Translations under genes and position numbers: made by a program
Virus record (IMG/VR): IMGVR_UViG_3300046703_000201
Span: 1-52,888 of that record
Length of the DNA: 52,888 bases
Strand: one strand, 5' to 3'
From: a virus
In this document: positions 8,871-30,468 of the stretch, in pieces
Numbering within the stretch: the first letter of the stretch is position 1
Layout of the letters: each line of letters opens with the position of its first letter
Notes under the pieces: model-generated
Database searches by the model: none
The model's input: only the letters and a program-made list of their open reading frames with translations
Told to the model about the DNA's origin: nothing

Positions 8871-8871
8871 C

Positions 8872-14272: not shown

Positions 14273-14499
14273 AAGAGCAAAAATTGGTAGAAGGCCAACT
14301 TGTCCAACTGAATCCGGAAACAGTTGAAAATCCAATGTTCGCCGCTTGTATCATGGTGGTAACAGAACCAAAACCGTGGGGTGCCCAAGGGTATGTGCAA
14401 AGTCTGGGCGAAAACGGACTTCCCGGCGGACAAGCATATTATCGTGCCAAATGGGAAGAGATGGAGGTAGTTGGTTTTGTTGAATGTTTGCGCGCTTAA
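14269..14499 (+). CDS. Hypothetical protein (76 aa)
   Basis: MKEQKLVEGQLVQLNPETVE and a PWGAQGYVQSLGENG beta segment suggest a small SH3-like barrel. Translationally coupled to the upstream gene (ATGA). It converges with the integrase gene, overlapping its 3' end by 4 bp. Confidence 0.6.
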   Translation: MKEQKLVEGQLVQLNPETVENPMFAACIMVVTEPKPWGAQGYVQSLGENGLPGGQAYYRAKWEEMEVVGFVECLRA

Positions 14500-15611
14500 A
14501 TCCGCGCAAACATAGCATTCGCCTTTGCCAGTTCCTGCCGGTTGTCGTTCGCATCCAGCCAAGTCGAATACACGCGCTGGAACATGACTATCGAGTGCCC
14601 CAGTTGTTTGGCCGCCCAACGGTCCCGCGCGCCTCCCATCAGTAACATGGTGGCGCAGGTATGCCGGGTCTGCCTGGCATCACGATCCCGTATCCCGCAC
14701 CTTGCCAATGCAGGGCGCCAATAATTTTGCACCAGGCAGGAAGTATCCGCATAAGGTCTGCCGGTGTTAGGATGGATAAAAAGATGCTCGCTGGCAGTCA
14801 ATCCCCGCAATCGCTTCAGCAAGGCAATACTTTCATCGGAAATCTCAACCCGTCGCACGCATTCTGTTTTGGTCAGTTTAACGATCCCGCGTACTTTGGC
14901 TGAAGAGATTATCAGCGACTTCCTTTCCCAATCCACATTTTCCCAGCGCAAGTCAATTCCCTCGGAAGGGCGAAATCCTATCCGGAACGCGAGATTGAAA
15001 TAAATGGCAACCGGCTCCGGATAATGCTGCCGCATATCATCCAACACCTTGGACATTTCTTCGATGTTTAGCGGGTCCGGTTCCGGATCGGCTATCTTCG
15101 GGAACTCGATTTTTATGGCATGATTGACTGTTACTGCTCCCGCATCCATGCCAAAACTATAGATGCAGCGCAATACCGAGAGGATGTTATGAAAGGTCTT
15201 GTTGGATATTTCGAGTCTGGACATTAGTTCGTTGAGTTCCAGGAAGCTGATGTCTGCCATGACTCTATCGCCCAGCGATCCGAAGTAAGCCGCTATAGTA
15301 GTGCGGTATTCCCGAATAGTAGTCTCGGCTAAAACTCTTCTTCGTGAATCCAGCCAGGACGAAGCGACCTCTTTAAACAAGAGACCATTTTTTAGCTTCG
15401 CATGTTTTGACTCAGGGAAGAACTCTTTGAAATCGAATGTGCCGGCACCGATACGTTTCAGTATCTCACGACGTATCGAGGCGGCTAGTTTAAGGTTAGC
15501 CGGGGTCGGAGTTAGCTTTAGTGTCGGAAAGTATCGCTGGTCATTCCAAGTGAAGATAATGCGTATGGAAGAGCCGCGCGGCGAAACCCCTTCGTATAGT
15601 TTACTGGTCAT
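14496..15611 (-). CDS. int: Tyrosine recombinase / integrase with arm-binding domain (371 aa)
   Basis: The N-terminal 80 residues (SPRGSSIRIIFTWND) are an arm-site DNA-binding domain of the DUF3596 type. The catalytic domain shows FRPSEGIDL (Arg I), a KLTK lysine turn, ARQTRHTCATMLL (Arg II, with Arg replacing the usual first His), LGHS and the nucleophile region RVYSTWL. It joins attP to attB. Its orientation is opposite the second integrase at 17161. Confidence 0.92.
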   Translation of the reverse strand: MTSKLYEGVSPRGSSIRIIFTWNDQRYFPTLKLTPTPANLKLAASIRREILKRIGAGTFDFKEFFPESKHAKLKNGLLFKEVASSWLDSRRRVLAETTIREYRTTIAAYFGSLGDRVMADISFLELNELMSRLEISNKTFHNILSVLRCIYSFGMDAGAVTVNHAIKIEFPKIADPEPDPLNIEEMSKVLDDMRQHYPEPVAIYFNLAFRIGFRPSEGIDLRWENVDWERKSLIISSAKVRGIVKLTKTECVRRVEISDESIALLKRLRGLTASEHLFIHPNTGRPYADTSCLVQNYWRPALARCGIRDRDARQTRHTCATMLLMGGARDRWAAKQLGHSIVMFQRVYSTWLDANDNRQELAKANAMFARI

Positions 15612-17160: not shown

Positions 17161-18171
17161 ATGGCAACTGTAGAAAGAACCAAAAACGGATGGCGCTGTC
17201 AGGTTTATGTCGATGGTAAGCGGCCATCAAAAACATTTCGCACCAAGCGGGAAGCTGATGCATGGGGATCGACAAAAGAGATTGAATTGCGCACGCAAAA
17301 AACAATGCTGCCCGGAGAAAAGTTCGCTTTTTACGAAGCGATGGATCGGTATATGGAGGAAGTATCTACCACCAAACGCGGAGAACGATGGGAGCGGATT
17401 CGGATTACTGCGCTAAAAGTTGATCCGTTGTTGCGCTGCAATGAACCCATCAGCCACATCAAAACTACTCATCTCGTTGATTGGCGCAATGCCAGGCTAA
17501 AAGTGGTAAAGCCCAATACTGTGTTACGAGAAATTACATTGCTCTCGGATATTTTTGAGACAGCACGCAAAGAATGGCATTGGATTGAGGTAAATCCCAT
17601 TCGGGACATGAGCAAACCATCTAAAGGTAAAAGCCGCGAAGTAGTAATTACTGCAAAGCAAATCCGGCTTATGCTTCAGACAATGAATTACTCATCCGGT
17701 CAATCAGTTCGTACAATGACACATGCCGTTGCGAATTGTTTCTTGTTGGCATTACGCACTGGTATGCGCGCGGGTGAATTGTGTAATTTGACATGGACTA
17801 ATGTGCATGATGGTTGGTGCCATTTGCCGATAACCAAAACGGTCTCGCGTGATGTGCCGATCACTCCCAAGGCAAAAGTTATTATCGAACGGATGCGCGG
17901 ATGGGATTCGCAATCGGTGTTCGGGTTGAAAGCACAAACACTTGATGCGCTATTTCGGAAATATCGGAATAAAGCGGAGTTGGAAGGGTTTACATTCCAT
18001 GATTCGCGGCACACTGCCGCGACATGGATTGTTGGTAATATGCATTCTAACAGTGTCCCGGCGCAACAAGCGGTATTCGATTTGTGCAAGATGTTCGGAT
18101 GGAAGAATACCGATCAAGCACTGGTTTATTACAATCCTCATGCGCGAGATATAGCCAAGCGCATTGGTTGA
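17161..18171 (+). CDS. int: Second tyrosine recombinase / integrase (336 aa)
   Basis: N-terminal arm-type fold (MATVERTKNGWRCQVYVDGK, then SKTFRTKREADAW), a SAM-like core-binding domain, and a catalytic domain with ALRTGMRAGELCNL (Arg I), PITKTVSRDV (Lys), TFHDSRHTAATW (His-x-x-Arg), FGWKN (Trp in place of His) and the nucleophile YYNPH. Complete and apparently active. It is unlike the first integrase in length and N terminus. It lacks a visible IntI-specific extra helix, so it is not an integron integrase. Confidence 0.92.
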   Translation: MATVERTKNGWRCQVYVDGKRPSKTFRTKREADAWGSTKEIELRTQKTMLPGEKFAFYEAMDRYMEEVSTTKRGERWERIRITALKVDPLLRCNEPISHIKTTHLVDWRNARLKVVKPNTVLREITLLSDIFETARKEWHWIEVNPIRDMSKPSKGKSREVVITAKQIRLMLQTMNYSSGQSVRTMTHAVANCFLLALRTGMRAGELCNLTWTNVHDGWCHLPITKTVSRDVPITPKAKVIIERMRGWDSQSVFGLKAQTLDALFRKYRNKAELEGFTFHDSRHTAATWIVGNMHSNSVPAQQAVFDLCKMFGWKNTDQALVYYNPHARDIAKRIG

Positions 18172-18384: not shown

Positions 18385-18426
18385 TTTTTCTCCCATGTAA
18401 GGTGTAAAACTCGTCTATTGCCAGAT

Positions 18427-18448
18427 TAGACACCTATCAAGGTGTCTA
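18427..18448. promoter_or_regulatory. Perfect operator-like dyad
   Basis: TAGACACCT-ATCA-AGGTGTCTA, with a further AGGTGT half-site at 18402. It overlaps the methyltransferase stop codon and precedes the small HTH gene, so autoregulation is plausible. A hairpin in RNA is an alternative. Confidence 0.6.
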
Positions 18449-19273
18449 TTTTAAGTTATGCCCACCCAGCGCACTGGCTAGGAAGCTCTCTTGTTTATAA
18501 ACTTTCGTCATTTTCGGTGTGCAAAACAATGAGGGTTGGTTAAGTTCGCGTTCAATCCTCGCGCTTGCGGCCTTAAAAAAATCTTTCTTGATCTCAAAAC
18601 CATAGGCGCTACGTTCCGCCCTGATGGCGGCAATTATTGTGGATGCACTGCCAGCGCATGGGTCTATCACAACATCGCCGGGGTCTGTGAATATTGAAAT
18701 CAATCTCTCGATCAACCGAACCGGCTTTTGCGTAGGATGTATCTTCTCGCTGTTGGTATCGCTCTCCCACGGAATTGCATTAAAGATCATCTTGCCGTGA
18801 TTGTTGAATTTTGGGAGCTTGTCGCGGTACAAAATTAGTCCGTATTCGCAGTTGCCTACCACGCGCATATTTGCCTTGAGCACTTGCGCCGATGAGTTCT
18901 TTACAAATACTAGATTGATGTATCTGTTCAGCCCGTGCTTTTTGGCCTCCTCTATCAATTCAAATTGTTGGTCAAACGCACAGAAAACAATCATGCAGGG
19001 TGCTTTACCCGTTTCTTTGGGTTCTGGTATCAACATCTTCGAGCAGAAATGCAAAAATTCAGGTATGCGAAAATCTTTATCTGTGTCGAAGAATTCTTTA
19101 TTTGCAAGCTCGCTTTCGCCGTTTTTATTGTCACCGCCCACGTACCACTCCGGGCTAGACCCATAAGCGTTTTTCCCCACGTTGTAGGGGATGTCAGCAA
19201 TGATGAGTTGCGCTTTTTTAATGGCGTACCGCTTCGAGTTTTGAAAGTGATCGTTAAAAAGTTCGTGCTTCAT
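18446..19273 (-). CDS. DNA methyltransferase, beta-class adenine type (275 aa)
   Basis: Motif IV variant IADIPYNVG lies near residue 30. Motif I (GDVVIDPCAGSASTIIAA) lies after TQKPVRLIERLI, giving the IV-before-I order of beta-class N6-adenine or N4-cytosine enzymes. ATG 19273 follows GGAGACAAC. No restriction enzyme is adjacent, so it is probably an orphan phage methylase protecting phage DNA. Its 5' leader directly touches an attC-like site. Confidence 0.85.
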   Translation of the reverse strand: MKHELFNDHFQNSKRYAIKKAQLIIADIPYNVGKNAYGSSPEWYVGGDNKNGESELANKEFFDTDKDFRIPEFLHFCSKMLIPEPKETGKAPCMIVFCAFDQQFELIEEAKKHGLNRYINLVFVKNSSAQVLKANMRVVGNCEYGLILYRDKLPKFNNHGKMIFNAIPWESDTNSEKIHPTQKPVRLIERLISIFTDPGDVVIDPCAGSASTIIAAIRAERSAYGFEIKKDFFKAASARIERELNQPSLFCTPKMTKVYKQESFLASALGGHNLK

Positions 19274-19297
19274 GTTGTCTCCAAGAAAAACCGCATA

Positions 19298-19377
19298 ACC
19301 TAACGTTCGAGCGGAGCGCCCGAAGCGTGGCTTTTCAATCAAAAATTTATGCGCGCCCGCTCAACTACACGTTGGGC
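19298..19377 (+). other. attC-like integron recombination site (attC-3)
   Basis: The core ACCTAAC at 19298 and GTTGGGC at 19371 match RYYYAAC and GTTRRRY. Inside them, GTTCGAGCGGAGCGC and GCGCGCCCGCTCAAC form imperfect complementary L-type arms around a variable loop. By core conformity the site points rightward, opposite to the neighbouring genes. Confidence 0.65.
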
Positions 19378-19601
19378 GACACAAATAGCGCATCGTATGT
19401 CGCGTCGAACACTGCGCGCATCGTGTGGATGCTCACCTTGTGCAGCGCCTGATCGTTAAATGTTCTTGCGTGGTACAGCGCCCACGCTTTGTCGTGCCAT
19501 TCGGCGCGAGATACCCCGCACGCTGGCGGGTGAAAGTCGCCCAACCCTACAGTCGAGTGGGACTGCGCCGAAGCGGTCTTGTTTGGTTCAGTTGCATTCA
19601 T
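19365..19601 (-). CDS. Cassette-borne hypothetical protein (78 aa)
   Basis: ATG 19601 (MNATEPNKTASAQSHSTVG) follows CGGAGATAAGC. The middle contains SRAEWHDKAWALYHARTF. Its stop codon falls inside the core of attC-3, and its leader lies beside attC-2, so the gene fills one cassette interval. No known family. Confidence 0.6.
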   Translation of the reverse strand: MNATEPNKTASAQSHSTVGLGDFHPPACGVSRAEWHDKAWALYHARTFNDQALHKVSIHTMRAVFDATYDALFVSPNV

Positions 19602-19682
19602 TTTGCTTATCTCCGTTTGATTGCTCTGCGGTGGCGCAGCCCCTCACTTTTACGTTCCACCCCGCGCTTCGCGCGGGGGTGG

Positions 19683-19785
19683 AACGCGCGGATAACCTGT
19701 GAATCATCGCCCACGCCGGCGCGTGGTGGAACAGGCGATGAATCACACTCCACCTTCGGCGGAGGTGGTTATCCGCGCGTTATGC
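19683..19785 (+). other. Long attC-like site (attC-2)
   Basis: Perfect 15-bp arms, AACGCGCGGATAACC (19683-19697) and its complement at 19767-19781, enclose two further nested stems. The right core reads GTTATGC, one base off consensus; the left core is degenerate. The roughly 100-nt multi-branched form recalls long attC sites such as VCRs. A separate hairpin (19653-19686) abuts it. Confidence 0.5.
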
Positions 19786-19786
19786 A

Positions 19787-20245
19787 TCACCCAACCCATC
19801 GCCACTTCCCCCCTACGAGGTCGTCGCCAATAGGTTGCGCGCTGCGCCCTGGGCGGTTGTGCCACATCGCTGCACTTCCGCCCGCATCTTCCTTGTCGAG
19901 CCGAAAACCAGCGGCTCGCAAACTGGCTCCGCCTTCTTCTGGCAGAGTGTAGGTGTAAATCGGATTATGTCCCATTGCTCTTGCTGCCCTGCGTGCCGCC
20001 CCGTACAGTATCGAGCAGGCGTTTCGCGTTCCATCCGTGCAAAGGCGCGTTATTTCAGCGGCCATGCCGTCGTCAAGTCGTGGCGCTACCGGACGCCCAA
20101 CTATGGCAACCCCTCGCAGCGTGTTACTCTCATCAACTACTCCAACCGCGAACTTGTGCCCAATCACTGGGCGGCTGTGTCTATGCAAACGACGTACAAA
20201 ATCGTTCGCCGTTTTCAAGTCGGTTGGTACGATTCGCAGTTTCAT
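19787..20245 (-). CDS. XF1762-family GNAT-like protein (152 aa)
   Basis: Family signature: FVRRLHRHSRP, HKFAVGVVDES, VAIVGRPVAPRLDDG, EITRLCTDGTRNACSILYGA, GASLRAAGFR. The fold resembles GNAT acetyltransferases. XF1762 proteins occur on phages and mobile elements, with no proven substrate. MKLRIVPT at 20245 is preferred, but the in-frame ATG at 20257 lies in the attC core itself. The gene fills the interval between attC-2 and attC-1. Confidence 0.8.
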   Translation of the reverse strand: MKLRIVPTDLKTANDFVRRLHRHSRPVIGHKFAVGVVDESNTLRGVAIVGRPVAPRLDDGMAAEITRLCTDGTRNACSILYGAARRAARAMGHNPIYTYTLPEEGGASLRAAGFRLDKEDAGGSAAMWHNRPGRSAQPIGDDLVGGKWRWVG

Positions 20246-20253
20246 GGGCAAAG

Positions 20254-20313
20254 GCATAACCCGGCGCTCAACCCGGACCCCGCGAAGCGGGGCCGGTTAG
20301 CTCTGCGTTAGAC
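20254..20313 (+). other. Classical 60-bp attC-like site (attC-1)
   Basis: Outer cores are GCATAAC (20254) and GTTAGAC (20307). Arms GCGCTCAACCCGGACC and GGCCGGTTAGCTCTGC flank a CCCCGCGAAGCGGGG hairpin. Length and right-hand end match the classical 59-base element. It forms the 3' end of the leftward gene at 20268. Confidence 0.75.
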
Positions 20314-20483
20314 ATACGAGGGTCGCTATCCAGATATTTAGCGTCATAATGCAATAGCGTTTCAGGCAGGTAGCAATCCCCATCGTCCAGGACATAATGT
20401 ATTCCGTCGAATGTGCCGTGCAATATCTCGCCAGACCAGTTCATATCCAACACAGTGCAAAACTTCGGATAGTATTCAGTCAT
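20268..20483 (-). CDS. Paralogue of the 12461 gene, 3' end replaced by attC (71 aa)
   Basis: Shares YYPKFCTVLDMNWSGEI, GDCYLPETLLHY and DSDPR with the copy at 12461-12673. Similarity stops exactly at DPR, where the reading frame enters attC-1 and picks up 15 unrelated residues (MSNAELTGPASRGPG). This marks a recombination junction. Confidence 0.7.
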   Translation of the reverse strand: MTEYYPKFCTVLDMNWSGEILHGTFDGIHYVLDDGDCYLPETLLHYDAKYLDSDPRMSNAELTGPASRGPG

Positions 20484-20495
20484 TTTTTCTCCCCT

Positions 20496-20756
20496 TCAAA
20501 CTACAACCCGGTTCTCCAAAACCGCACGTCCCGCATCCGTCAGCGCATATCGGTGCCACGGATATGGCTCGTCAAGTTCTACTATAAATTTGTGTTGCTC
20601 AAGGTCTTCTATCGCTGCTCTAAGCCATGAAAGTTCGCTCATGTCCCATGTACTTACAAGCGGATGTTTTGCCAGCACCTGAAGCACATTTTCGCTATTG
20701 CGCTGGCCTTTTGGCAGGTATGCTGCATCACCGCTAAAAACATCAATAAACATCAT
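20496..20756 (-). CDS. Small winged-helix-like protein (86 aa)
   Basis: Opens MMFIDVFSGDAAYLPKGQRN and ends with YALTDAGRAVLENRVVV, the last helix-wing pattern of many small winged-helix proteins. It is in the leftward early operon, 26 bp after the SSB stop. Weak ribosome site. Function unknown. Confidence 0.55.
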   Translation of the reverse strand: MMFIDVFSGDAAYLPKGQRNSENVLQVLAKHPLVSTWDMSELSWLRAAIEDLEQHKFIVELDEPYPWHRYALTDAGRAVLENRVVV

Positions 20757-20782
20757 ATTTACACTATTTACCTAGATATATC

Positions 20783-21229
20783 TCAAAACGGGATGTCGTC
20801 GTCAAAGTGGTCGAACGGCGCAGCCTTTGATTCCGATGCGCTTTCGTTTGGTTGATGATCTTGCGTTTGTGCCGAGCGCGGTTGTTGCGCGCTATCCGGC
20901 TTGCCGCCCAGCATTTTCATTTCGCTGACGATGATTTCTGTCGTATAGCGATCCTGGCCGGTTTCCTTGTCTTGCCATTTGCGGGTTTGCAGTTTGCCTT
21001 CGACATAAATCAGGGAACCTTTCTTCAGGTATTGGCCGGCGATTTCGGCCAATTTGCGGTAGAACGTCAAATTGTGCCACTCGGTTTTTTCCTGCTTGTC
21101 GCCGTTCTTGTCCTTCCAACTTTCCGAGGTCGCCAGCGAGGTGTTGGTTACGGCATCGCCGTTTGGCATGATTTTGGATACCGGGTCTTTGCCCAGATAC
21201 CCGATCAGAATGACTTTGTTCACTGACAT
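20783..21229 (-). CDS. ssb: Single-stranded DNA-binding protein
   Basis: The 148-residue protein starts [16 protein letters not shown] at ATG 21229 after AAGGAGATTGCA. It has the OB-fold strands ([50 protein letters not shown]), a disordered linker, and the acidic tip FDDDIPF used to recruit partner proteins. It coats ssDNA in phage replication and recombination. Confidence 0.95.
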
Positions 21230-21242
21230 TGCAATCTCCTTA

Positions 21243-21467
21243 TCAATAATCCGAACTGGCACCGCCGCCACCATAATCCCCGCCACCGCCGAAAAAACTA
21301 CTGCTCTCCTGCGCCTCTTTGGTTTCCGCAATATCGCTATATCCGGGCGGGGTGGGGTAGATCACGCTTACACCTGCGGTTTGGGCGTCTTGCAAATCAC
21401 AGCGTTCGCAATGAAGCCCTCTTTTAGTTAAAGCCGTTTTGCCGCACCGCTTGCATTTATAGATCAT
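21243..21467 (-). CDS. Zinc-ribbon protein with Gly/Ser tail (74 aa)
   Basis: CKRCG ... HCERCD gives a four-cysteine zinc ribbon. The C terminus is Gly-rich ([17 protein letters not shown]) and probably disordered. ATG 21467 after GAAGGAGCTTTC. It is located between the DUF2325-like gene and ssb, so a nucleic-acid role is plausible. Confidence 0.65.
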
Positions 21468-21488
21468 GAAAGCTCCTTCGCTAGAACG

Positions 21489-22616
21489 TCAATTCGCAGA
21501 ATGTCCATTTCTTCGGTTTAAAATTTCTTTCAAGGATGAGACGCCGCCATTGCAATAGGTGAAGCCGCTGCAACCGCGCATGGCATCCTGTGCCCGATGA
21601 CTGACAAATTTGGTCATCAGGATCGCTCTGTCGCAATGCGGTATGAGGGAGCGGATTTTCTCCGAGGTAACATCAGAGTCAAATATGCGCAGGTCATAGA
21701 TTTTGCTCCATTCGTTTTGTATTTCCTGTGCCTGCTGGCCTAGCAATCCGACAATCAGGACTTTGGGTCTTACGTCTGCTTTGGCCGGCTTGAGTGCTTC
21801 GGCAATGATCGGGTGCGACGTTCCCATCGGTATCGGATTAACATCACGAAATGCGGCAATCAAGGTGTTGGCGAACTGCGGCGAGTTGATGATGTTCAGC
21901 ACGAGGGGCTTAACCGTGCTGACAATAGCCTGAATGAGTGCGGTTTCGAGGCTTTGCATTCCGGCTGCTGGATTATCTTGCGGCAAGTCTGCCGGCGGCT
22001 CTTTGCCGATAAGCGGCATTGCTTCGGAAACAGGCAATTGTTCTATGGCTGGCGTTGAAACAGATTGTCCAAGCGGTTGTATTTCCGGTGACGCACATTC
22101 AGGTTTGCTATTGCGGTCCGCCTCGGTCATTTCGTTAAGCAGATTAAGCAACCAGGGTGCTTGCGCGGGAGAATTTAGCTGCCTTGAAAATTGATTGTTT
22201 GCCGGAAGTCTTTCATTTACCCGTGCAAAAACAGCTTTCCATGTTAATTCGGGATGTTCACGGCGGATTTCATAAATGGTTGTGGCGATTTGCTTTTGAC
22301 GGTTTTGTTTTTCGATACGAGCAGTATTAGATTTCTGGATGACACTCTTTTTTTCTTTTTTTTCGGGGAAAATATTATGTCCGGTTTTTTTGCATAATGC
22401 TTTCAGTTTACGCATCAACCACGGATAACTGCTTGGACCCATAACCTGAACTGGAATAGTCTCCCGTCCCGGAAACGCAGCCCGTCCGGCATACATTGCG
22501 GCGATCCATGAAATAGCCGGATTGTTTTTTCTGGCTTCAAACACTTTTTCCGCAAAAATCTGTTTTTCGGCTTCGGTCATTTTTGGTGTGAATCTTGCCA
22601 TAAAATCTTCCGTCAT
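21489..22616 (-). CDS. Early protein with DUF2325-like C-terminal domain (375 aa)
   Basis: Residues 1-150 look like two helical repeats, each with a (P)xISW/xLTWKAVFARVNE-type segment and a YPWLM/APWLL motif, suggesting duplicated DNA-binding domains. A disordered Pro/Glu linker leads to KVLIVGLLGQQAQEIQNEW ... CDRAILMTKFVSHRAQDAM, which resembles DUF2325. Start ATG after GGGAGAATAAAAA. It may regulate or organise early DNA functions; this is inference. Confidence 0.55.
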   Translation of the reverse strand: MTEDFMARFTPKMTEAEKQIFAEKVFEARKNNPAISWIAAMYAGRAAFPGRETIPVQVMGPSSYPWLMRKLKALCKKTGHNIFPEKKEKKSVIQKSNTARIEKQNRQKQIATTIYEIRREHPELTWKAVFARVNERLPANNQFSRQLNSPAQAPWLLNLLNEMTEADRNSKPECASPEIQPLGQSVSTPAIEQLPVSEAMPLIGKEPPADLPQDNPAAGMQSLETALIQAIVSTVKPLVLNIINSPQFANTLIAAFRDVNPIPMGTSHPIIAEALKPAKADVRPKVLIVGLLGQQAQEIQNEWSKIYDLRIFDSDVTSEKIRSLIPHCDRAILMTKFVSHRAQDAMRGCSGFTYCNGGVSSLKEILNRRNGHSAN

Positions 22617-22722
22617 TTTTTATTCTCCCTGAGTGATTGACTTTAACTTTGCGATCCGATATGCAACCGGCTAATCAGTGTAATTGATTCAAGTAATTCA
22701 GTCATCATATCAAGGGTTATTT

Positions 22723-23337
22723 TTAACCGATTGCGTGGCGGGTTTCTTGTACCAGCGCCAGAAACTCGCCGCGCCGGTCTTGCAGGCGTTTTATTTCATC
22801 CTGACAATCGTCCCGGTAGAGGCGGTAGGTGATGAGTTGTCGGTTGGGGGGAAAGTCGGAACAATAGCTGATAAAATCCACCCAATCGCGCTGCGTGCAA
22901 TCCAGGTGCCCGACCAACTGCCAGCGATAGGCGGGGTCAAAACTGCCCCGGCGCAGGGTGGCATAATGGGTTTTGGCGATGACGGATTTTATTTCTACCA
23001 CACCATCATTCCCGACCAGGCCATCCGGCGAATCGCCGTAGCATGACCAGTCAAAAAAACCGCCATTTTTAACATCGACAAAGCTCATTTCAGCGTAGAG
23101 TTCACGGGCAATCGGTTCCTGCTCATGTCCCCGTTCCATATGGTCATTGGAAAAGCTGAATTCGGCACGCTTGCCGGTGACTTGTTCCAGGGCGAGTTGC
23201 AGCGCATAGTCCTTGGCTGGGTCACCAAATGTCTTGCCTTCGTTCGCCATGATGATGCCGAATTTTGAGGCAGTGGCCTTGCCGAGTCGTAAAGCCATCC
23301 ACTCTTCGGTGTTTTGGGGAATGTCGTGGAAGATCAT
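22723..23337 (-). CDS. YqaJ-type recombination exonuclease
   Basis: N-terminal GDSPDGLVGNDGVVEIKSV holds the D...ExK catalytic set of lambda-exonuclease/YqaJ nucleases, after MERGHEQEPIARELY and before YRWQLVGHLDCT. These enzymes degrade one strand of dsDNA for annealing-based recombination. It starts inside the stop of the upstream gene (ATGA), which is probably its partner. 204 residues, normal for the family. Confidence 0.9.
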   Translation of the reverse strand: MIFHDIPQNTEEWMALRLGKATASKFGIIMANEGKTFGDPAKDYALQLALEQVTGKRAEFSFSNDHMERGHEQEPIARELYAEMSFVDVKNGGFFDWSCYGDSPDGLVGNDGVVEIKSVIAKTHYATLRRGSFDPAYRWQLVGHLDCTQRDWVDFISYCSDFPPNRQLITYRLYRDDCQDEIKRLQDRRGEFLALVQETRHAIG

Positions 23338-23876
23338 GGTTCATCTTCTTCTTCAAGTGCGGGATTCAACTCCGCCCCTACGTAACTCGATTCGATTAAC
23401 AGCATCTGGTGTTCATCCGACATATCCACCCGTTGCAGCACGGAAATCAGGTTACCATCCCGCCGATAAGCGGTTTGAGCGTTTTTCCACATCACCACAT
23501 TGTCCGGGGTCAACTGAATCTTGGTCGTCTTGGCCGGGCGAATGCGCAAGCCTTCCACTGTTTCCTTGCCAAACCGCACATTGGGATCGACAAAAATGGT
23601 CACTTTGACGTTTTGCCAATCCTCGATGAATGGCGAATCTGTGATCGCTTTCATCGTCTTGCTGTTGCCCGCATTGAGGATAAGCGGCTTGAGCTTTTCG
23701 CCGGGGCGAATCTCTTTATCGGCAAAGTGCGCCGTATTGAATACATCCTTGGTCTTTTTGGTGCGGTCCGGTTCGAGCATGACATGCGAGATTGTCAGCA
23801 CAATCGGCTCGACGATGTCAGCCGAGGATAGATAGGGGGAATCGAAGGCTTTGCGGTAATGGGTTTTGGTGGTCAT
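23334..23876 (-). CDS. Exonuclease-associated early protein (180 aa)
   Basis: Opens MTTKTHYRKAFDSPYLSSAD, then KLKPLILNAGNSKTMKAI, FIEDWQNVKVTIFVDPNVRF. Proteins with this KPLILN...SK / EDW..V...DP layout regularly accompany YqaJ exonucleases in phages. A single-strand annealing or DNA-binding role is likely, but I cannot prove it. Coupled to the exonuclease gene by ATGA. Confidence 0.65.
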   Translation of the reverse strand: MTTKTHYRKAFDSPYLSSADIVEPIVLTISHVMLEPDRTKKTKDVFNTAHFADKEIRPGEKLKPLILNAGNSKTMKAITDSPFIEDWQNVKVTIFVDPNVRFGKETVEGLRIRPAKTTKIQLTPDNVVMWKNAQTAYRRDGNLISVLQRVDMSDEHQMLLIESSYVGAELNPALEEEDEP

Positions 23877-23894
23877 TATTACGTTCCTTTATTA

Positions 23895-23958
23895 ACATGG
23901 ATATTCAGGATGAGCAGGATATTGGCTTTTTATCCTGACTATCCTGTCCATCCATGTA
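23895..23958. repeat. Long inverted repeat, second copy
   Basis: Imperfect arms of 27 nt at 23895-23921 and 23932-23958 flank TTGGCTTTTT. The arms begin ACATGGATATTCAGGAT and end CCATCCATGT, almost the same as 8769-8832. Here the element is intergenic in the leftward early operon. Confidence 0.8.
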
Positions 23959-23964
23959 AAAAAA

Positions 23965-24333
23965 TTAATCCCACTTCTTTGCATGTGCTTTTTCGGCATC
24001 CTTGATGGCGATCTGCGCCCAGTAGGTGTCCACCATATATTTGAGCGCGGTCAGGGCCAGATAATTTTTTTTGCCGTTGCACAATTGATGTTCGACCGAA
24101 TCCAGAATGTAACCAAAGGTCAGCAAGCGTGCGGCTTCTGGCGCATTAGCCATCGCTTCTTCAAAATGCGCAAAAGTCCACGGATCATCTTCCTGACCTT
24201 TTTCGAGCAGGCCGGCGGCATATTGGGCGATGGTTTCTACCCGCAAATCATTCGATGCTTCGGCGTCAAGATGATCGCTCAATTCGGCATATAGGGCGTT
24301 GTCGGGATTGGCATCAGGCGGCACGAATGGCAT
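23965..24333 (-). CDS. First leftward early protein (122 aa)
   Basis: Acidic, helical protein (MPFVPPDANPDNALYAELSD) with no motif. It is the first gene downstream of PL, the position of lambda N or small early regulators, but it lacks an Arg-rich N-type motif. Function unknown. Confidence 0.6.
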   Translation of the reverse strand: MPFVPPDANPDNALYAELSDHLDAEASNDLRVETIAQYAAGLLEKGQEDDPWTFAHFEEAMANAPEAARLLTFGYILDSVEHQLCNGKKNYLALTALKYMVDTYWAQIAIKDAEKAHAKKWD

Positions 24334-24369
24334 GTTGTTCTTCCCCGGTGTTGGCGTTGACGATGGGGC

Positions 24370-24408
24370 ATCATATTAGCTGGTTGCATGTTATGTCAAT
24401 AGCACAAC
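24370..24408 (-). promoter_or_regulatory. PL promoter and operator
   Basis: On the minus strand: operator GTTGTGC-TATTG-ACATAAC with TTGACA (-35) inside it, then TATGAT at an 18-bp spacer (24370-24375). It drives the leftward early operon. The surrounding 27 bp (24388-24414) is repeated with one mismatch, inverted, at PR. Confidence 0.72.
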
Positions 24409-24428
24409 AAAAATATTTTTCAGTCAAT

Positions 24429-24455
24429 AAAAAACCCTCCGGAGAGGGCTTTTGT
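24429..24455 (-). terminator. Terminator of the repressor transcript
   Basis: On the minus strand AGCCCTCTCCGGAGGGTTTTTT forms a compact stem with a T6 tract, ending the leftward transcript of the repressor unit just before PL. Confidence 0.75.
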
Positions 24456-24458
24456 TCG

Positions 24459-24534
24459 GTAGGGGCAGGTTTTGAACCTGCCCGTGCGGATGTTATTCAA
24501 CGTGATGCGGACGGGTTTGAAACCCACCCCTACG
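24459..24534. repeat. Twin-hairpin REP-like element
   Basis: GTAGGGGCAGGT...ACCTGCCC and GGACGGGTTT...AAACCCACCCCTACG hairpins in opposed order, separated by a GTGCGGATGTTATTCAACGTG spacer related to that of the late copies. The stop of the 38-aa frame is one base outside it. Confidence 0.85.
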
Positions 24535-24651
24535 TCAATCCGAAGGTTCCTGGTGTTCCGCCAATTCACGCGCTAAATCCAGTAATTCTTTTTTTTCTTC
24601 TTGCGTCATGGAGTAATACAGTGAGAGCAATTCTTCCAGCGAGGTGTCCAA
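24535..24651 (-). CDS. Small TTG-initiated protein (38 aa)
   Basis: TTG 24651 sits 4 nt after GGAGAAG. The peptide is acidic and amphipathic (SLEELLSLYYSMTQEEKKEL). It lies between the repressor gene and its terminator, so it would be co-transcribed with the repressor. It may be a lysogeny accessory peptide, or no gene. Confidence 0.4.
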   Translation of the reverse strand: MDTSLEELLSLYYSMTQEEKKELLDLARELAEHQEPSD

Positions 24652-24729
24652 TTGACTTCTCCTTTCCGATTGTTTGCAGCGGGGATGGAAAGGTAATCCA
24701 TAGCAAGTTACTCGTCAATAGGGTTACTG

Positions 24730-25068
24730 TTATTTTTTCTGGTTTATCATCAATCTGGCATGAGCGAGCAGAATTGCGCGCATTTCTTCGCTCATTTTTT
24801 CGTATAGCTCGGTAAGTTCGTTTTCTTCGGCCTCATCATGGCTCACATCCATCCAGCCCAAAGGCTTGCCGCAACCAGCTTCGAGTTGTCGGGCCAGCGT
24901 GGAACCCATCACGGCCACTTTGCCATTCTTATTTTTGAACTGGGTCGAAATCTGCGACAGGTTATGCCTGGATGTGCCGGCAGCGCGAGCCACCGCCGCA
25001 GCAGATTTAAACTCTGCCACCAGAACTTCGAGGTTGCTGCGGCGTATTTCTTCAATGGTCGATTTCAT
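24730..25068 (-). CDS. Repressor of the lysis-lysogeny switch (112 aa)
   Basis: Starts MKSTIEEIRRSNLEVLVAEF. A helix-turn-helix follows (SAAAVARAAGTSRHNLSQIS), then GSTLARQLEAGCGKPLGWMD, typical of short phage XRE repressors. The acidic C-terminal helices (ENELTELYEKMSEEMRAILL) probably dimerise. No peptidase domain, so induction cannot be by RecA-type autocleavage. It is flanked by PL and PR, each with the same operator. Longer upstream starts would run across PR. Confidence 0.8.
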   Translation of the reverse strand: MKSTIEEIRRSNLEVLVAEFKSAAAVARAAGTSRHNLSQISTQFKNKNGKVAVMGSTLARQLEAGCGKPLGWMDVSHDEAEENELTELYEKMSEEMRAILLAHARLMINQKK

Positions 25069-25119
25069 GCGCGCAATCTTAGCTGGTTGCATAGATTTTG
25101 CAAGCATTTTTTTTATTTT

Positions 25120-25157
25120 GTTGTGCTGTTGACATAACATGCGTTCAGCATAATAAT
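25120..25157 (+). promoter_or_regulatory. PR promoter and operator
   Basis: Operator GTTGTGC-TGTTG-ACATAAC (25120-25138) overlaps TTGACA at 25129-25134. The -10 is TAATAA/AATAAT at 25151-25157. It drives the cro-led rightward operon, 34 bp upstream of that start. Confidence 0.78.
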
Positions 25158-25190
25158 GCGCCATCCATAACAAAACCAAAAAATCACGGC

Positions 25191-25400
25191 ATGGACAAAA
25201 CAATCGAAATCAATGATCTCACGCCCGGCGAACGGCGCGAACTGGCAAAAAATATCGGCAAGAGTGATGTGTTTTTGTGGCAATGCGGGGACGGTATCCG
25301 CACCCCCAGCCTGGCAACCGCCGATGCCCTGATCGACCATGAACCGCGCCTGACGGTAAAAACCCTGCTGGCACCCAAGCGCAGACGCGAAGCAATGTGA
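25191..25400 (+). CDS. Cro-like (YdaS-type) regulator (69 aa)
   Basis: MDKTIEINDLTPGERRELAK, then IGKSDVFLWQCGDGIRTPSL as the recognition-helix region and ATADALIDHEPRLTV, the short YdaS/Cro pattern. It diverges from the repressor gene and is the first PR gene. Its stop overlaps the next start (ATGTGA). Confidence 0.8.
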   Translation: MDKTIEINDLTPGERRELAKNIGKSDVFLWQCGDGIRTPSLATADALIDHEPRLTVKTLLAPKRRREAM

Positions 25401-25654
25401 ATTCTACCCGCACTCTCCTGCGCTTGGAAATCGCGCGAGGTCTTGAGCATTTGCCAAAAGGTGCGGATATGCGGCTGCATATCAAAATGTTGCCGCCGGA
25501 CAGGCGAGGGTTTTTAAGTGCGCTGGCTGATTGGGTTGAGGATTACCAGAAGCACCAGCAATCATTTGATGATGTGCTGATGGCTGCCGTCAAGATCAGC
25601 CGCGAAAGAAAAATTCAGGCGGTACAACCATTGCGGGGGATTCATGGCCGGTGA
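25397..25654 (+). CDS. Early protein before the initiator (85 aa)
   Basis: Contains EIARGLEHLPKGADMRLHI and PPDRRGFLSALADWVEDYQK. All-helical, soluble. It overlaps cro by 4 bp and the initiator gene by 11 bp. A CII-like place in the operon, but no CII-type HTH is evident. Unknown. Confidence 0.6.
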   Translation: MNSTRTLLRLEIARGLEHLPKGADMRLHIKMLPPDRRGFLSALADWVEDYQKHQQSFDDVLMAAVKISRERKIQAVQPLRGIHGR

Positions 25655-26420
25655 CTGGATCAAGATCGAAAATGAATTGCCGGACAAGCCGGAAGTTCAC
25701 GCCATTGCCGCGAAGTTGAATATTGACCCGGATGCGGTGGTCGGCAAGCTGATTCGGGTTTGGCAATGGTTTGATAAACACACGGTTGATGGTAACGCTC
25801 TCGGCGTTAGTTTTGCGTTAGTGGATCGTATAACCGGCGTTATCGGATTTGGCGAAGCGATGATGTTTTCTGCATGGCTGGAGCAAAAAGACAAGATGCT
25901 GGTCATGCCGCATTTTGACCGGCATACCTCGTCAAGTGCCAAAAAACGGGCGTTGACAGCCAAACGGGTCGCAAACTTTGAACAAAAAACTAACGCGAAG
26001 GCTAACGCTACAACTAACGCTGCGAACGTTAGCGGAGCGTTACCTAGAGAAGAGAAGAATATATCTATTACTAACGTAATAGATAAGGGCGCTAATCGCG
26101 CCAAGAAATTGCCGGATGATTTTTTGCCAAACGAATGGCACATCGTCTATGCGCTGCAAAACAAACTGAATCTGGAAGAACAGTTTGCCCAGTTTGCCGA
26201 TTACCACAAGGCGCGGGGCAGCACGATGAAAGACTGGAATGCCGCGCTGCGCACTTGGCTGCGCAACGCCACGCAATACCGCAAGACCAGCCCGTCGGAC
26301 AAACCCGGCAAACCGAATTATTTTGACCACTTGCAGGATGTGAGCAACCAGCTAACGGGGAGAACGACAAATGCCGGTATTACCCTTGACATGGATCAAC
26401 GCATTATTTCAAAAATTTGA
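25644..26420 (+). CDS. O-like replication initiator (258 aa)
   Basis: The N terminus MAGDWIKIENELPDKPEVHA, with VGKLIRVWQWFDKHTVDGNAL, is the wHTH domain of phage O/DnaT-like replisome organisers. The C terminus LPNEWHIVYALQNKLN ... GSTMKDWNAALRTWLRNA is the DnaT-like ssDNA/partner domain. The linker is encoded by repeated CTAACGC units, as the lambda origin lies within O. It overlaps the P-like gene by 50 bp. Confidence 0.82.
   Translation: MAGDWIKIENELPDKPEVHAIAAKLNIDPDAVVGKLIRVWQWFDKHTVDGNALGVSFALVDRITGVIGFGEAMMFSAWLEQKDKMLVMPHFDRHTSSSAKKRALTAKRVANFEQKTNAKANATTNAANVSGALPREEKNISITNVIDKGANRAKKLPDDFLPNEWHIVYALQNKLNLEEQFAQFADYHKARGSTMKDWNAALRTWLRNATQYRKTSPSDKPGKPNYFDHLQDVSNQLTGRTTNAGITLDMDQRIISKI
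25790..26077. other. Candidate replication origin (iterons in the initiator gene)
   Basis: Nine TAACG/CGTTA-type repeats occur at 25792, 25805, 25815, 25990, 26001, 26013, 26025, 26036 and 26070. They are followed by an A/T- and purine-rich stretch (26046-26075). Position and layout mimic lambda ori. The repeats also encode an Asn/Ala-rich linker, so low complexity alone is the alternative. Confidence 0.55.
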
Positions 26421-26724
26421 ACGGTTTTACGGGCAAGACTTCGTGCGCAAATGGGCGGGCACCGATGTGATGGCGGTAAAACAGGAATGGGCCGAAAAGC
26501 TCGGCAAGTTTGACGGTGAAACCTTGCGCCAAGCGGCGGAATATTGCGGTGACAACATCGCCAAACCGCCCAGCCTGCCGGAATTTGTCACCATCTGCAA
26601 AAACATGCGCCCGGCGCCGGTGCATCATGCATTTTTGCCGGAACCGAAATTCGAGAAAACGGAATACGGCATGAAAATGGCGGCTGAACTCAAAAAATTG
26701 CTGGCAAAAAAGGTGGTGTCGTAA
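26371..26724 (+). CDS. P-like replication protein, probable helicase loader partner (117 aa)
   Basis: LPLTWINALFQKFERFYGQD, then VKQEWAEKLGKFDGETLRQA and PPSLPEFVTICKNMRP, the conserved core of lambda P-like proteins, here in a short version. It follows and overlaps the O-like gene. It would deliver host DnaB to the origin. Confidence 0.75.
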   Translation: MPVLPLTWINALFQKFERFYGQDFVRKWAGTDVMAVKQEWAEKLGKFDGETLRQAAEYCGDNIAKPPSLPEFVTICKNMRPAPVHHAFLPEPKFEKTEYGMKMAAELKKLLAKKVVS

Positions 26725-27041
26725 TGGCGAAAACAATTGCCCTGATGAAAATTGAACAAAACCGTGAACAATTCGCGCCGGATTTTTACGACTGGATGAA
26801 ACACAATTATCCGCTGTTTTCCCACTTCGAGGACGAAGCCCTGTCCGCGTATATGGTTGGCTTTGGTCGTTATTCTGCCCGCACCATCTGGGAAGTAATG
26901 CGCCACCGCACCAACCTGCGCGAAATCGGGGACGGCACCTGGAAACTCAACGATCACCGCACGCCGGATTTGGCACGGCTGTATCTGCTGCTGCATCCTG
27001 GGCATAAGGGGTTTTTTGAATTGCGCAGGAGGGCGGCATGA
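26724..27041 (+). CDS. Early hypothetical protein, winged-helix-like (105 aa)
   Basis: Contains FAPDFYDWMKHNYPLFSHFE and GRYSARTIWEVMRHRTNLRE, then DHRTPDLARLYLLLHPGHKG. As I recall, the pattern is common in phage early regions after the helicase loader. Start overlaps the previous stop (TAATGG). Function unknown. Confidence 0.65.
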   Translation: MAKTIALMKIEQNREQFAPDFYDWMKHNYPLFSHFEDEALSAYMVGFGRYSARTIWEVMRHRTNLREIGDGTWKLNDHRTPDLARLYLLLHPGHKGFFELRRRAA

Positions 27042-27250
27042 TAAAACATGATGAAGGCGCTGTGACGGTCAAAAAATTTGACGGGATTGAATTTTCAATC
27101 GGCGGGGTCGTAATTGAACTATCCGATGGTCGTGTGCGCATCTGGAACGGCATAGGCGAAGTCAGCGATACGCCGGATGTCGATTTGCCCATTGAATCGC
27201 TGAAACAGGCATTGAGCACAACTTGGATGCTGGTGAGGAAAGCAGAGTGA
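27038..27250 (+). CDS. Early hypothetical protein (70 aa)
   Basis: Beta-rich (IEFSIGGVVIELSDGRVRIW) small protein, ATGA-coupled to its upstream neighbour. It has a GTGA overlap with the next small gene. Unknown. Confidence 0.6.
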   Translation: MIKHDEGAVTVKKFDGIEFSIGGVVIELSDGRVRIWNGIGEVSDTPDVDLPIESLKQALSTTWMLVRKAE

Positions 27251-27339
27251 GATACATCAGCGTTTGTTCCGGTCCAACTCAGGATGATGAATATAAATAC
27301 AGGGAACACAAAGGAAAGCTTGAGGCGAGACGCAAATGA
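27247..27339 (+). CDS. Small basic early protein (30 aa)
   Basis: GTG 27247 overlaps the preceding stop. The peptide contains CSGPTQDDEYKYREHKGKLE. It is followed by an ATGA overlap with the next gene. Tight coupling on both sides supports it despite the size. Confidence 0.45.
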   Translation: MRYISVCSGPTQDDEYKYREHKGKLEARRK

Positions 27340-27455
27340 ACATTTTTGAACCCATCAAAACCATCGTAACCACGGCCATCGCCGTCTATCTGGCTCTGAT
27401 CGCAATGGCGTATACCTTGCCGCTATTTGATGAACTACTGGGAATCATGCCATGA
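27336..27455 (+). CDS. Small single-span membrane protein (39 aa)
   Basis: MNIFEPIKTIVTTAIAVYLA continues into a hydrophobic helix ending ALIAMAYTLPLF. ATGA overlaps at both ends place it firmly in the operon. Unknown role. Confidence 0.5.
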   Translation: MNIFEPIKTIVTTAIAVYLALIAMAYTLPLFDELLGIMP

Positions 27456-27700
27456 ACGTACTCAATGCTATTGCAACTTTGACAAAATACAACGAATGGC
27501 GGCGTGGCGCGAACATTCCGCAACCGGCACCGGCATCCATAGGCCGCGCGATCGAGTCTGTTTGCGAGGCGGCGGCACGGTATGAGGCGCTGCGTCTGTT
27601 GAATGTTCGTCAATTCGTTGAACTGAAAGAGCGCAATTTGTCCGGCGAGAACTTCGACACGATGGTTGATGAACTGGTTAAGGCGCGGGCGGAAGAATGA
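27452..27700 (+). CDS. Early hypothetical protein (82 aa)
   Basis: Helical; contains YNEWRRGANIPQPAPASIGR and RAIESVCEAAARYEALR. Short proteins of this look lie near ninB in other phages. Coupled to the next gene by ATGA. Confidence 0.6.
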   Translation: MNVLNAIATLTKYNEWRRGANIPQPAPASIGRAIESVCEAAARYEALRLLNVRQFVELKERNLSGENFDTMVDELVKARAEE

Positions 27701-28146
27701 GCGACAAGCGCGTTTTCATCTTCACCCATCCCAACTCGCGCCGCCTGGCTCATGCCCAATGTGATCTGGCGCCGGAGGGCGCGAGGGTGGTGTTTGATTA
27801 CGAGCCGCCCAAAACCAATCCGCAGGAACGTAAGTATCACGCGATGATTAAAGATATTTCGCAACATTGCCTGTTTTTAAATCAGTCATGGGATGCCGAA
27901 GAGTGGAAACGCCTGTTGATCGACGCCTTTGTCCGCGTGATGCGCGAACAAGCCAAGGCGGAAAACAAACCTGACCCGTTTGGCGATCAAGGCCGCGTGG
28001 TGCCGGCACTGGATGGCCAGGGCATTGTGCAGCTCGGCATCCAGTCGCGCAAATTCAGCAAGCCGGTTGCCGCGCAGTTTATCGAGTATCTGTACAGCTA
28101 CGGCGCCGAAAACAATGTCAACTGGTCCGACGAGGTGAACTGGTGA
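27697..28146 (+). CDS. ninB: NinB/Orf-type recombination mediator
   Basis: The 149-residue protein matches NinB: KTNPQERKYHAMIKDISQHC, WDAEEWKRLLIDAFVRVMRE, QSRKFSKPVAAQFIEYLYSY. Lambda Orf/NinB binds ssDNA and replaces RecFOR in recombination. It lies in the nin-like segment with DUF1364 and RuvC-like genes. Start ATGA-coupled. Confidence 0.9.
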   Translation: MSDKRVFIFTHPNSRRLAHAQCDLAPEGARVVFDYEPPKTNPQERKYHAMIKDISQHCLFLNQSWDAEEWKRLLIDAFVRVMREQAKAENKPDPFGDQGRVVPALDGQGIVQLGIQSRKFSKPVAAQFIEYLYSYGAENNVNWSDEVNW

Positions 28147-28445
28147 GCAAAATTACCGAATCCGCAAACGGTGAGGATTGCCAGGTAAGGTTGCCCGGCG
28201 TATGCAGTTTTAATCCCCAGCAAACCGTCTGGGCGCACGCTAACGGGCTTGCCGCCGGCAAGGGCAAGGGTATCAAGTCACCCGACGCGCTGGGCGCGTA
28301 TGCGTGCTATAGCTGCCATATGGTGATCGACGGCCAACTGCCCGCGCCGCCGGATATGACGCGGCAGGATGTGTTGCTGGCGTTTCACGAAGGACACCAG
28401 CGCAGTTTTATCAAGTTGCTGGAAAAAGGTTTGGTGACATGCTGA
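28143..28445 (+). CDS. DUF1364 protein, putative HNH-like nuclease (100 aa)
   Basis: CQVRLPGVCSFNPQQTVWAH and GAYACYSCHMVIDGQ match DUF1364, with paired Cys/His metal ligands as in treble-clef nucleases. It sits next to ninB, as often seen, suggesting a recombination role. ATG overlaps the ninB stop region. Confidence 0.8.
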   Translation: MSKITESANGEDCQVRLPGVCSFNPQQTVWAHANGLAAGKGKGIKSPDALGAYACYSCHMVIDGQLPAPPDMTRQDVLLAFHEGHQRSFIKLLEKGLVTC

Positions 28446-28446
28446 C

Positions 28447-28647
28447 ATGCCGTTATGCAAACAGTGCGCGCATCTCAGATTGAAGCAAGAACACCCGAAC
28501 CAGGCATGGTGGGCATTGTGGGTGTGTGACAAGCGAAAATTCTGCTTCGGTCTGGATAGCGACGTAAGCGCGGGCAAGGGCGATAAACAGCGCGGCCTGG
28601 ATGCCATGCCGGACAAATGCAAATCATTTGACAAGAGGTGCGCATGA
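28447..28647 (+). CDS. Small cysteine-rich (zinc) protein (66 aa)
   Basis: CKQCAHLRLKQEHPNQAWWA, then CDKRKFCFGLD and CKSFDKRC give several metal-binding cysteines. It resembles NinF/NinH-region zinc proteins in position. Coupled to the RuvC-like gene by ATGA. Confidence 0.65.
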   Translation: MPLCKQCAHLRLKQEHPNQAWWALWVCDKRKFCFGLDSDVSAGKGDKQRGLDAMPDKCKSFDKRCA

Positions 28648-29105
28648 TATTGGCGATTGATCCGGGCAATACGCAAAGTGGCTGGTGTTTGTTCGGCGGT
28701 AAAAGCGTGCTGGATTCCGGTGTTTTGGATAATCACGCCATGCTCGAATTGATTTACCAGTATCGGAATTATGACTTGGCAATTGAGATGATTGCGAGCT
28801 ATGGCATGGCAGTAGGCCGGGAAGTATTCGAGACCTGCGTATGGATCGGGCGTTTTCAACAGTGGCATAACAGGCCGGATGCGGTGCGGCTGGTGTATCG
28901 CAAAGATGTAAAACTGCACCTGTGCGGCAATACCAAGGCCAAGGATACCAACATTCGACAAGCAATTATTGATCTTTTCCCGCCCAAAGGAGACGGGAAA
29001 ATCCCGCAGATAGGCACCAAGAAACAACCCGGACCGCTGTATGGCATCAGTAGTCATGCCTGGGCGGCTTTGGCCGTGGCGTTGACAGTAAGCGACATCA
29101 ACTAA
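28644..29105 (+). CDS. RuvC-like Holliday junction resolvase (153 aa)
   Basis: MILAIDPGNTQSGWCLF supplies the first acidic residue of the RNase H fold. YDLAIEMIASYG gives the second, and the terminal SSHAWAALAVALTV segment the last helix, though its acidic residue is replaced by H/S. It functionally replaces Rap/RusA seen in other nin regions. ATG 28644 preferred over GTG 28638. Confidence 0.82.
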   Translation: MILAIDPGNTQSGWCLFGGKSVLDSGVLDNHAMLELIYQYRNYDLAIEMIASYGMAVGREVFETCVWIGRFQQWHNRPDAVRLVYRKDVKLHLCGNTKAKDTNIRQAIIDLFPPKGDGKIPQIGTKKQPGPLYGISSHAWAALAVALTVSDIN

Positions 29106-29116
29106 CAGGGGGCTAT

Positions 29117-29614
29117 ATGGGATTCGAGCGATTGATTAAATCTGTTGAAGCGCATTCGCTAGGCTGGAAATCAACCGAAGAATGCGCGGTGGATCGGGTA
29201 ACGGCTATCGGCCTAGCCGCCGGCGGGAACGAAACCGGCGAAGCCATGCTGCGGGTAAACGCGCTCGATGCCAGCGCCTTGCGCAAAGTCATTTACCTGG
29301 TCGCGCGCCGGCTGAACCAGCGCCTGAACATCACGCGCGGATATGGTGAACGACTAGCAATCGCCGCCCTGCATGAATATTTGCGCCCCCACTGCTATTA
29401 TTGCGGCGGCAAAGGCCAGCATTTCCAGAAAAACACGGCAGTCCGCGCCTGCCCCTATTGCCAGGGCAGTGGCCTGCATCGCTATTCGGACACCGACCGC
29501 GCCATGCTGATCGGTGCATCGTACAATCAGCGCGCCTATGAAGAAGCCTTGGCTTATTTGCGCGATTCAGTCCGGACATTGGTAATTAATGCGGATCGGC
29601 GGCTTGATGCCTGA
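29117..29614 (+). CDS. Q-like late antiterminator with DnaJ-type zinc motif (165 aa)
   Basis: Helical N-terminal half (ALRKVIYLVARRLNQRL), then CYYCGGKGQHF ... CPYCQGSGLHRY, two CxxCxGxG motifs as in Q-type proteins of some lambdoid phages. It is the last gene of the rightward early operon and 730 bp upstream of a promoter-terminator unit. Action on late transcription is inferred from family and place. Confidence 0.72.
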   Translation: MGFERLIKSVEAHSLGWKSTEECAVDRVTAIGLAAGGNETGEAMLRVNALDASALRKVIYLVARRLNQRLNITRGYGERLAIAALHEYLRPHCYYCGGKGQHFQKNTAVRACPYCQGSGLHRYSDTDRAMLIGASYNQRAYEEALAYLRDSVRTLVINADRRLDA

Positions 29615-29712
29615 AAGAATTATCCCAGCATCTTGCAGATGTGCCGATAATAAATGCCGGTTAGCTGTCCCCGGCATTACAACCCAATAACCCACGCCGG
29701 AGGGTTAATCTG

Positions 29713-29967: not shown

Positions 29968-29976
29968 ATTTTCCTT

Positions 29977-30174: not shown

Positions 30175-30190
30175 GATAATTCCCTTAAAT

Positions 30191-30325: not shown

Positions 30326-30346
30326 AATAATTTCCTTTAAAAATAC

Positions 30347-30376: not shown

Positions 30377-30422
30377 CGCACCAGCTAATTAGGTTCTGCC
30401 GCATGGTGGAACACATAACGAT

Positions 30423-30453: not shown

Positions 30454-30468
30454 GCTTTAAAAACTCCG

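Follow-up and report, generated by a model that had tools for sequence, protein, structure and literature searches.

The 52,888-nt stretch of DNA analysed here, hereafter the window, covers positions 1–52,888 of the IMG/VR virus record IMGVR_UViG_3300046703_000201, and very probably contains a short integron cassette array that forms part of a temperate phage's early operon and belongs to a phage-adapted class whose cassette genes are inverted relative to their attC recombination sites. We further consider it likely that this class is a dedicated viral one, made up of a phage integrase clade, inverted cassettes and a phage operon ending in the integrase gene intI, in which the recombinogenic attC strand is the coding strand, so that phage transcription and replication favour exchange within a shared anti-restriction cassette market set apart from the bacterial pool. 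Both proposals draw on observed features, namely the structure of the sites, their polarity, the phage context and operon placement of the arrays, an integrase clade with intact catalytic residues, and the sharing of single cassettes between contigs.

The window encodes terminase and head–tail genes, as identified by a PHROG search, and a phage early gene for a single-strand DNA binding protein (20783–21229, minus strand; phrog_44, E 2.6e-56) lies upstream of the array on the strand of the cassette genes. From its promoter-proximal end, the array comprises attC site 3 (20254–20313, plus strand), the gene of a 156-residue Mom-like DNA modification protein (19787–20257, minus), site 2 (19679–19785, plus), a gene for a 78-residue protein (19365–19601, minus), attC site 1 (19293–19377, plus) and an N6/N4 DNA methyltransferase gene (18446–19273, minus). 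Within the last codons of the latter, a further core, G|TTATGC (18455–18461, plus), would mark the promoter-distal boundary, as judged from the letters alone. All genes of the array are thus on the minus strand and all attCs on the plus strand, the reverse of a canonical cassette, in which the gene follows the attC direction. As in the inverted class, each attC stands as a 5′ leader and each stop codon lies near the neighbouring core; the stops in the window fall beside or slightly beyond the cores, never exactly on G|TT. The earlier note had proposed integrase-less integron cassettes with inverted genes in a phage early operon, and this holds apart from the middle one of its three attC sites, which is degenerate.

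Sites 1 and 3 lie 876 bp apart on one strand without intI, which is the CALIN arrangement (at least two attCs, no intI). As the earlier note had also stated, the record contains no integron integrase, and no protein matches TIGR02249 above the cut-off; an integrase of the viral clade described below, present in some class members only, is likewise absent from the window, and intI is missing from many other array-bearing phage records too. The window does encode two different tyrosine recombinases of ordinary type on opposite strands (14496–15611 and 17161–18171), which were rejected as cassette recombinases, both scoring below the integron-integrase cut-off. Immediately outside the distal core, a hairpin followed by TTTT (18421–18455) is a possible terminator for the converging integrase gene.

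The identity of sites 1 and 3 as attCs was assessed in several ways. A structural scanner, whose criteria are cores, spacers, arms and an extrahelical base on one side, was calibrated on a class 1 array, in which it found six attCs, all in the gene direction, and on reversed sequence, where scores of 13 or more occurred three times per 1.33 Mb. Near the claimed locus it reports two sites, both on the plus strand, at 19293–19377 (score 13.0) and 20254–20313 (score 11.0). From 49 attCs of other phages, with no window sequence included, a covariance model was built that gives exactly two matches over the whole 52.9-kb window, which are site 1 (40.4 bits, E 3e-8) and site 3 (35.7 bits, E 5e-7), both above the level of shuffled sequence. 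A second model, trained on 38 bacterial attCs only, detects site 3 over the whole window (33.1 bits, E 1.9e-5) and does not report site 1; once filters are off, this 85-bp site is missed by the covariance models, probably owing to a limit on hit length. Both sites display RYYYAAC and GTTRRRY cores, paired arms, unpaired spacers and an extrahelical base on one arm, site 1 reading GCATAAC CTAAC GTT-C-GAGCGG ... CCGCTC AAC TACAC GTTGGGC; the left cores, GCATAAC, agree with RYYYAAC at six of seven positions. The 60-bp site 3 is as first described, and site 1, which had been placed at 19298–19377, keeps its right end and gains a left core 5 bp further out, at 19293.

That these sites are unrelated hairpins or terminators with a chance resemblance to attCs has a negligible probability. 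G+C-rich hairpins are indeed common, and the left arm of site 2 is a perfect palindrome, but the E-values in the window range from 2e-5 to 3e-8, the same architecture surrounds homologous genes in 13 loci, and shared cassettes stop at the predicted crossovers. An Rfam search of the window, Rfam having no attC family, returned only an intron and a tRNA. The former is a group I intron (45212–45470, E 1e-21) located right before an open reading frame at 45488–46498 and preceded by a possible homing-endonuclease reading frame (44796–45293); the latter is a tRNA-Ile with anticodon TAT (36240–36315) that starts one base past the end of the terminase large subunit gene.

Site 2 differs between its two halves. 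Its right half, GGTT-ATC-CGCGC-GTTATGC (ending at 19785), is a proper attC half, and the left half shows, on folding, a perfect 15-bp pairing with neither an extrahelical base nor an unpaired spacer. It is scored by no covariance model. Site 2 is best read as a degenerate attC that, judged by its predicted structure, is not functional; if so, the genes for the 78-residue and Mom-like proteins may now move only jointly or never, and the decay of the middle site suggests that the array has become partly fixed.

The outer core at 18455–18461 was not part of the earlier description and adds the methyltransferase as a probable third cassette. Since GTTATGC occurs 12 times in the window, both strands counted, the argument for this core is its location rather than its motif: it directly adjoins the stop codon of the methyltransferase gene, whose start codon has site 1 about 20 bp upstream of it and a GGAG ribosome site in between. 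The array thus probably holds three genes, those of the methyltransferase, the 78-residue protein and the Mom-like protein.

The 275-residue methyltransferase matches PF01555 (E 2.9e-24) and phrog_67 (E 1e-51). Two genes had been described between the three sites, one for a 78-residue protein and one for an XF1762 protein, and both descriptions are confirmed. The 78-residue protein has no Pfam or PHROG match and one viral relative (82% over 45 residues), and its structural model is of low confidence (pLDDT 65) with two helices. The 156-residue protein matches NF045478 (XF1762; 174.7 bits against a cut-off of 50) and phrog_1384 (Mom-like DNA modification; E 4.6e-33), and scores below the Pfam Mom cut-off (21.6 versus 27.1). 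The closest solved structure to its predicted model (mean pLDDT 72) is that of phage Mu Mom (PF25680; 8bv8, E 1.5e-5). Family profile and predicted fold together identify it as a Mom-like protein of the XF1762 family; it differs from Mu Mom in showing 19% identity over the structural match and in being cassette-borne and known from sequence and model. The first ATG of its gene sits, on the gene strand, in the GTTATGC core of site 3. The N6 methyltransferase and the Mom-like protein most likely protect phage DNA from restriction.

Relatives of the Mom-like gene in viral and bacterial loci fall into two groups, some without attCs and 13 flanked by them. In these 13 viral or prophage loci the attCs around the gene are all on the strand opposite to it, with up to ten attCs in a row. 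The bacterial-trained covariance model likewise places them on the opposite strand, whereas in class 1 and chromosomal controls it places attCs on the gene strand. Polaribacter phage P12002L, a published phage with attCs, carries at 37305–38816 a Mom-like gene adjoining a DNA methyltransferase gene, a pairing of functions also seen in the window. The cultured Burkholderiales strain Ideonella livida has a prophage with an inverted array, together with a separate integron integrase on another contig, and may therefore serve as a laboratory host for tests.

The opposite orientation of genes and attCs is the rule in viral arrays and not a peculiarity of the window. Viral contigs were scanned with a gene-blind attC DNA pattern, giving at least 120 loci, in which the cassette bodies between neighbouring attCs of the same strand are inverted in 198 cases, canonical in 5 and ambiguous in 54. 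When similar loci are clustered, 71 inverted stand against 5 canonical clusters among the at least 120 loci listed. An identical analysis of 36 integron-integrase loci from Pseudomonadota chromosomes gives 43 canonical cassettes and 1 inverted; the difference between these controls and the at least 120 viral loci has a Fisher p value of 3e-41 calculated over bodies and 1.5e-11 over loci. A longest-ORF test that dispenses with the gene caller yields inverted-to-canonical ratios of 129:29 for the viral loci (at least 120) and 1:45 for the bacterial ones. Among the viral loci listed, 47 have at least three attCs, and in 43 of these every attC is on one and the same strand; the genes immediately flanking the arrays follow the direction of the cassette genes in 157 cases, as opposed to 24. 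Of the 186 single-gene inverted cassettes in the same loci, 69 have a stop codon that finishes precisely at the G|TT crossover, and the median distance from the start codon to the gene's own attC is 27 nt (186 cassettes). The attC thus forms a 5′ leader and the crossover often provides the stop codon, in a mirror image of bacterial cassettes. In viral cassette arrays, inverted polarity is general.

These counts bear on two other readings. In the first, the window holds a passively captured fragment of an ordinary bacterial chromosomal integron, as in phage CALINs, and the inversion is accidental. Canonical phage CALINs do exist, as in TJE1, in which three plus-strand attCs accompany plus-strand genes (PMC9892861), and five loci of the viral survey (at least 120) are canonical. 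Nevertheless, the orientation of a gene relative to its attC is fixed within the cassette, so that a captured bacterial cassette would remain canonical, and the chromosomal controls are canonical by 43 to 1 whereas viral arrays are inverted by 198 to 5 (at least 120 loci); taking into account that viral intI genes also form a separate clade, we regard capture as quite unlikely. Less likely still is that the wider viral class is an artefact of bacterial integrons misclassified in IMG/VR or of genes called on the wrong strand of G+C-rich DNA. Many of the contigs are short, 54 bodies (at least 120 loci) are ambiguous, and one gene caller, trained locus by locus, did flip strands in G+C-rich loci. 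However, bacterial integrons come out as canonical with the same tools, the caller-free test agrees, and stops fall exactly on the crossover in 69 of the 186 single-gene cassettes among the loci listed. Phage structural genes on array contigs, including the terminase and head–tail genes of the window, also argue against misclassification: two array contigs together carry portal, terminase, major head, tail and Mu-type transposase genes, and the gene content of array-bearing contigs identifies them as phages. Members of the inverted class are nearly all uncultivated metagenome contigs. One 40-kb phage contig (L172, G010 20001–40000, with sites at 5100–9815, and L171, at 3593–4388) bears operons with attC arrays on either strand, each of the arrays being inverted with respect to the genes that it contains.

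A true integron integrase accompanies the Mom-like arrays of G011 and arrays of G013 and G015. A search seeded with these integrases identified 225 viral contig stretches encoding relatives, and 80 of the 225 loci were examined. In these 80 loci the attCs keep the layout usual for integrons, being found on the 5′ side of intI and directed away from it, but the cassette bodies are inverted in 58 cases and canonical in 2, so that genes run toward intI. The neighbouring gene on the 5′ side shares the direction of intI in 60 of 62 cases, at a median distance of 64 bp, indicating that intI is the last part of the cassette operon and not divergent from it. The R-H-R-H-Y catalytic residues are intact in all 77 full-length viral integrases, and all seven that were tested pass the integron-integrase cut-off. 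In a maximum-likelihood tree, a clade of 67 members (support 97/94) holds 30 of the 31 integrases associated with inverted arrays and none from canonical chromosomal arrays; since the search was seeded from clade members, what the tree establishes is their separateness from the sampled bacterial integrases, and not the full diversity of these enzymes. Also present at viral intI loci are tail fibre, endolysin, ParB and DNA methyltransferase families. INPHARED yielded no close cultured relatives of the viral integrase, the best matches being class 1, Shewanella and Vibrio integrases and virus Rctr41k at 47%; the lack of cultured phages of the clade in that collection may explain why it has been overlooked. 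Rctr41k itself (KX853513), which comes from a methane-oxidising enrichment, carries under the annotation xerD an integron-integrase-like gene (4680–5678), together with two attC-like sites (8415–8813) opposite to its genes.

Movement of individual cassettes is suggested by comparisons among contigs. Ten non-redundant cassettes are common to otherwise unrelated contigs, at 69–100% nucleotide identity, and in each the similarity stops within about 10 nt of both predicted G|TT crossovers, the flanks being at the level of shuffled sequence. Examples include a 428-bp cassette at 100% identity (L286 and L215), an 840-bp methyltransferase cassette at 97.5% (L293 and L447) and a 624-bp Mom-like cassette at 86% (L025 and L068). 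Such a pattern reads as the signature of site-specific movement, one cassette per event. The cargo, surveyed over 105 viral cassette proteins, includes N6/N4 methyltransferases (8), Mom-like proteins (3), Lar restriction-alleviation proteins (2) and PAPS reductases (2), most of the 105 having no assignment, and the window carries the two commonest known kinds, a methyltransferase and a Mom-like protein. Phages appear to trade anti-restriction genes cassette by cassette.

For the exact locus of the window, no empty or otherwise filled version was found. When phage and plasmid collections were searched with its nucleotide sequence, most matches were to methyltransferase and single-strand DNA binding protein genes, and a 375-residue protein of the window had no relatives for a synteny comparison, hence no empty site is shown. 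The empty site is predicted to read ...TATTTTAAG|TTAGACATACGAGGG....

One further reading, which is compatible with the explanation preferred for the class and differs for the window only, is that real inverted cassettes arrived here earlier and that their sites are now dead, the genes being kept as ordinary early genes. The missing intI and the degenerate site 2 would fit such a history, as would several close relatives that have the Mom-like gene without attCs. On the other hand, sites 1 and 3 retain cores, spacers and the extrahelical base, and an integrase could be supplied in trans. We hold this reading to be possible, if on balance improbable.

In the explanation that we favour, a cassette array of the inverted class in a phage early operon, each attC is the 5′ leader of its gene, and each gene stops on or next to the G|TT crossover of the attC that follows, so that a phage early transcript from the minus strand, started at the phage early promoter, would cover all the cassettes as one operon. 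In full members of the class, this operon also includes a viral intI, located promoter-distally and with the attCs directed away from it, and new cassettes would enter next to intI at that end. The window has lost, or never had, this gene, and its cassettes would then move only with an integrase in trans, which a co-resident phage or a host integron might supply, through attC × attC or attC × core recombination. The viral or host integrase would cut and join cassettes on the folded bottom strand of the attC. Inversion puts this recombinogenic strand on the coding strand, which is displaced in transcription and, if the genes are co-directional with replication, is the lagging-strand template; a gain in recombination would be a possible reason for the inverted arrangement. 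Recombination has been reported to rise when the attC bottom strand is the lagging-strand template (PMC5371416).

Integrons have been viewed as devices by which bacteria capture genes, and those reported from phages as rare fragments picked up by capture. If a separate viral lineage exists, equipped with an integrase clade and a pool of inverted cassettes of its own, phages would be operating the same device on their own behalf. Part of phage mosaicism would then have a mechanism, down to the single gene, and methyltransferase, Mom-like and Lar-like genes could be exchanged rapidly in response to host restriction; the reason for the inversion is a sharp question that existing attC assays can address. 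No report of inverted viral integrons was found in an open-access library, outside which most subscription papers and preprints lie, and the class, a large one, is apparently undescribed.

The closest known systems are the CALINs and integrons of phage genomes, including those of TJE1, P12002L and H101, described by Qi et al. (2023, PMC9892861), who also found that IntI1 was able to recombine five out of six attCs taken from virulent phages. Like the window, phage CALINs are integrase-less attC arrays with methyltransferase cargo. Unlike the viral class, the complete integrons of that study are bacterial-type; neither a viral integrase clade nor systematic inversion is reported there, and divergent attCs are noted solely for P12002L (PMC9892861). 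In our scan, the three attCs of TJE1 follow the gene direction, which makes this case canonical. Sedentary chromosomal and class 1 integrons share with the viral class the IntI family, the attC structure, attCs that point away from intI, one small gene per cassette and a TAA stop codon in the core site. In those integrons, however, cassette genes run along the attC direction from a promoter at intI/attI, and intI is divergent, whereas in the viral class genes run toward intI within the same operon. The Treponema integron, in which intI has an atypical direction (PMC3607928), resembles the viral class in that intI and cassette genes are co-directional. It reaches this arrangement the other way round: in Treponema, intI is flipped toward attI and the genes run normally, away from attI, whereas in the viral class intI is normal and the genes are flipped with respect to their attCs.
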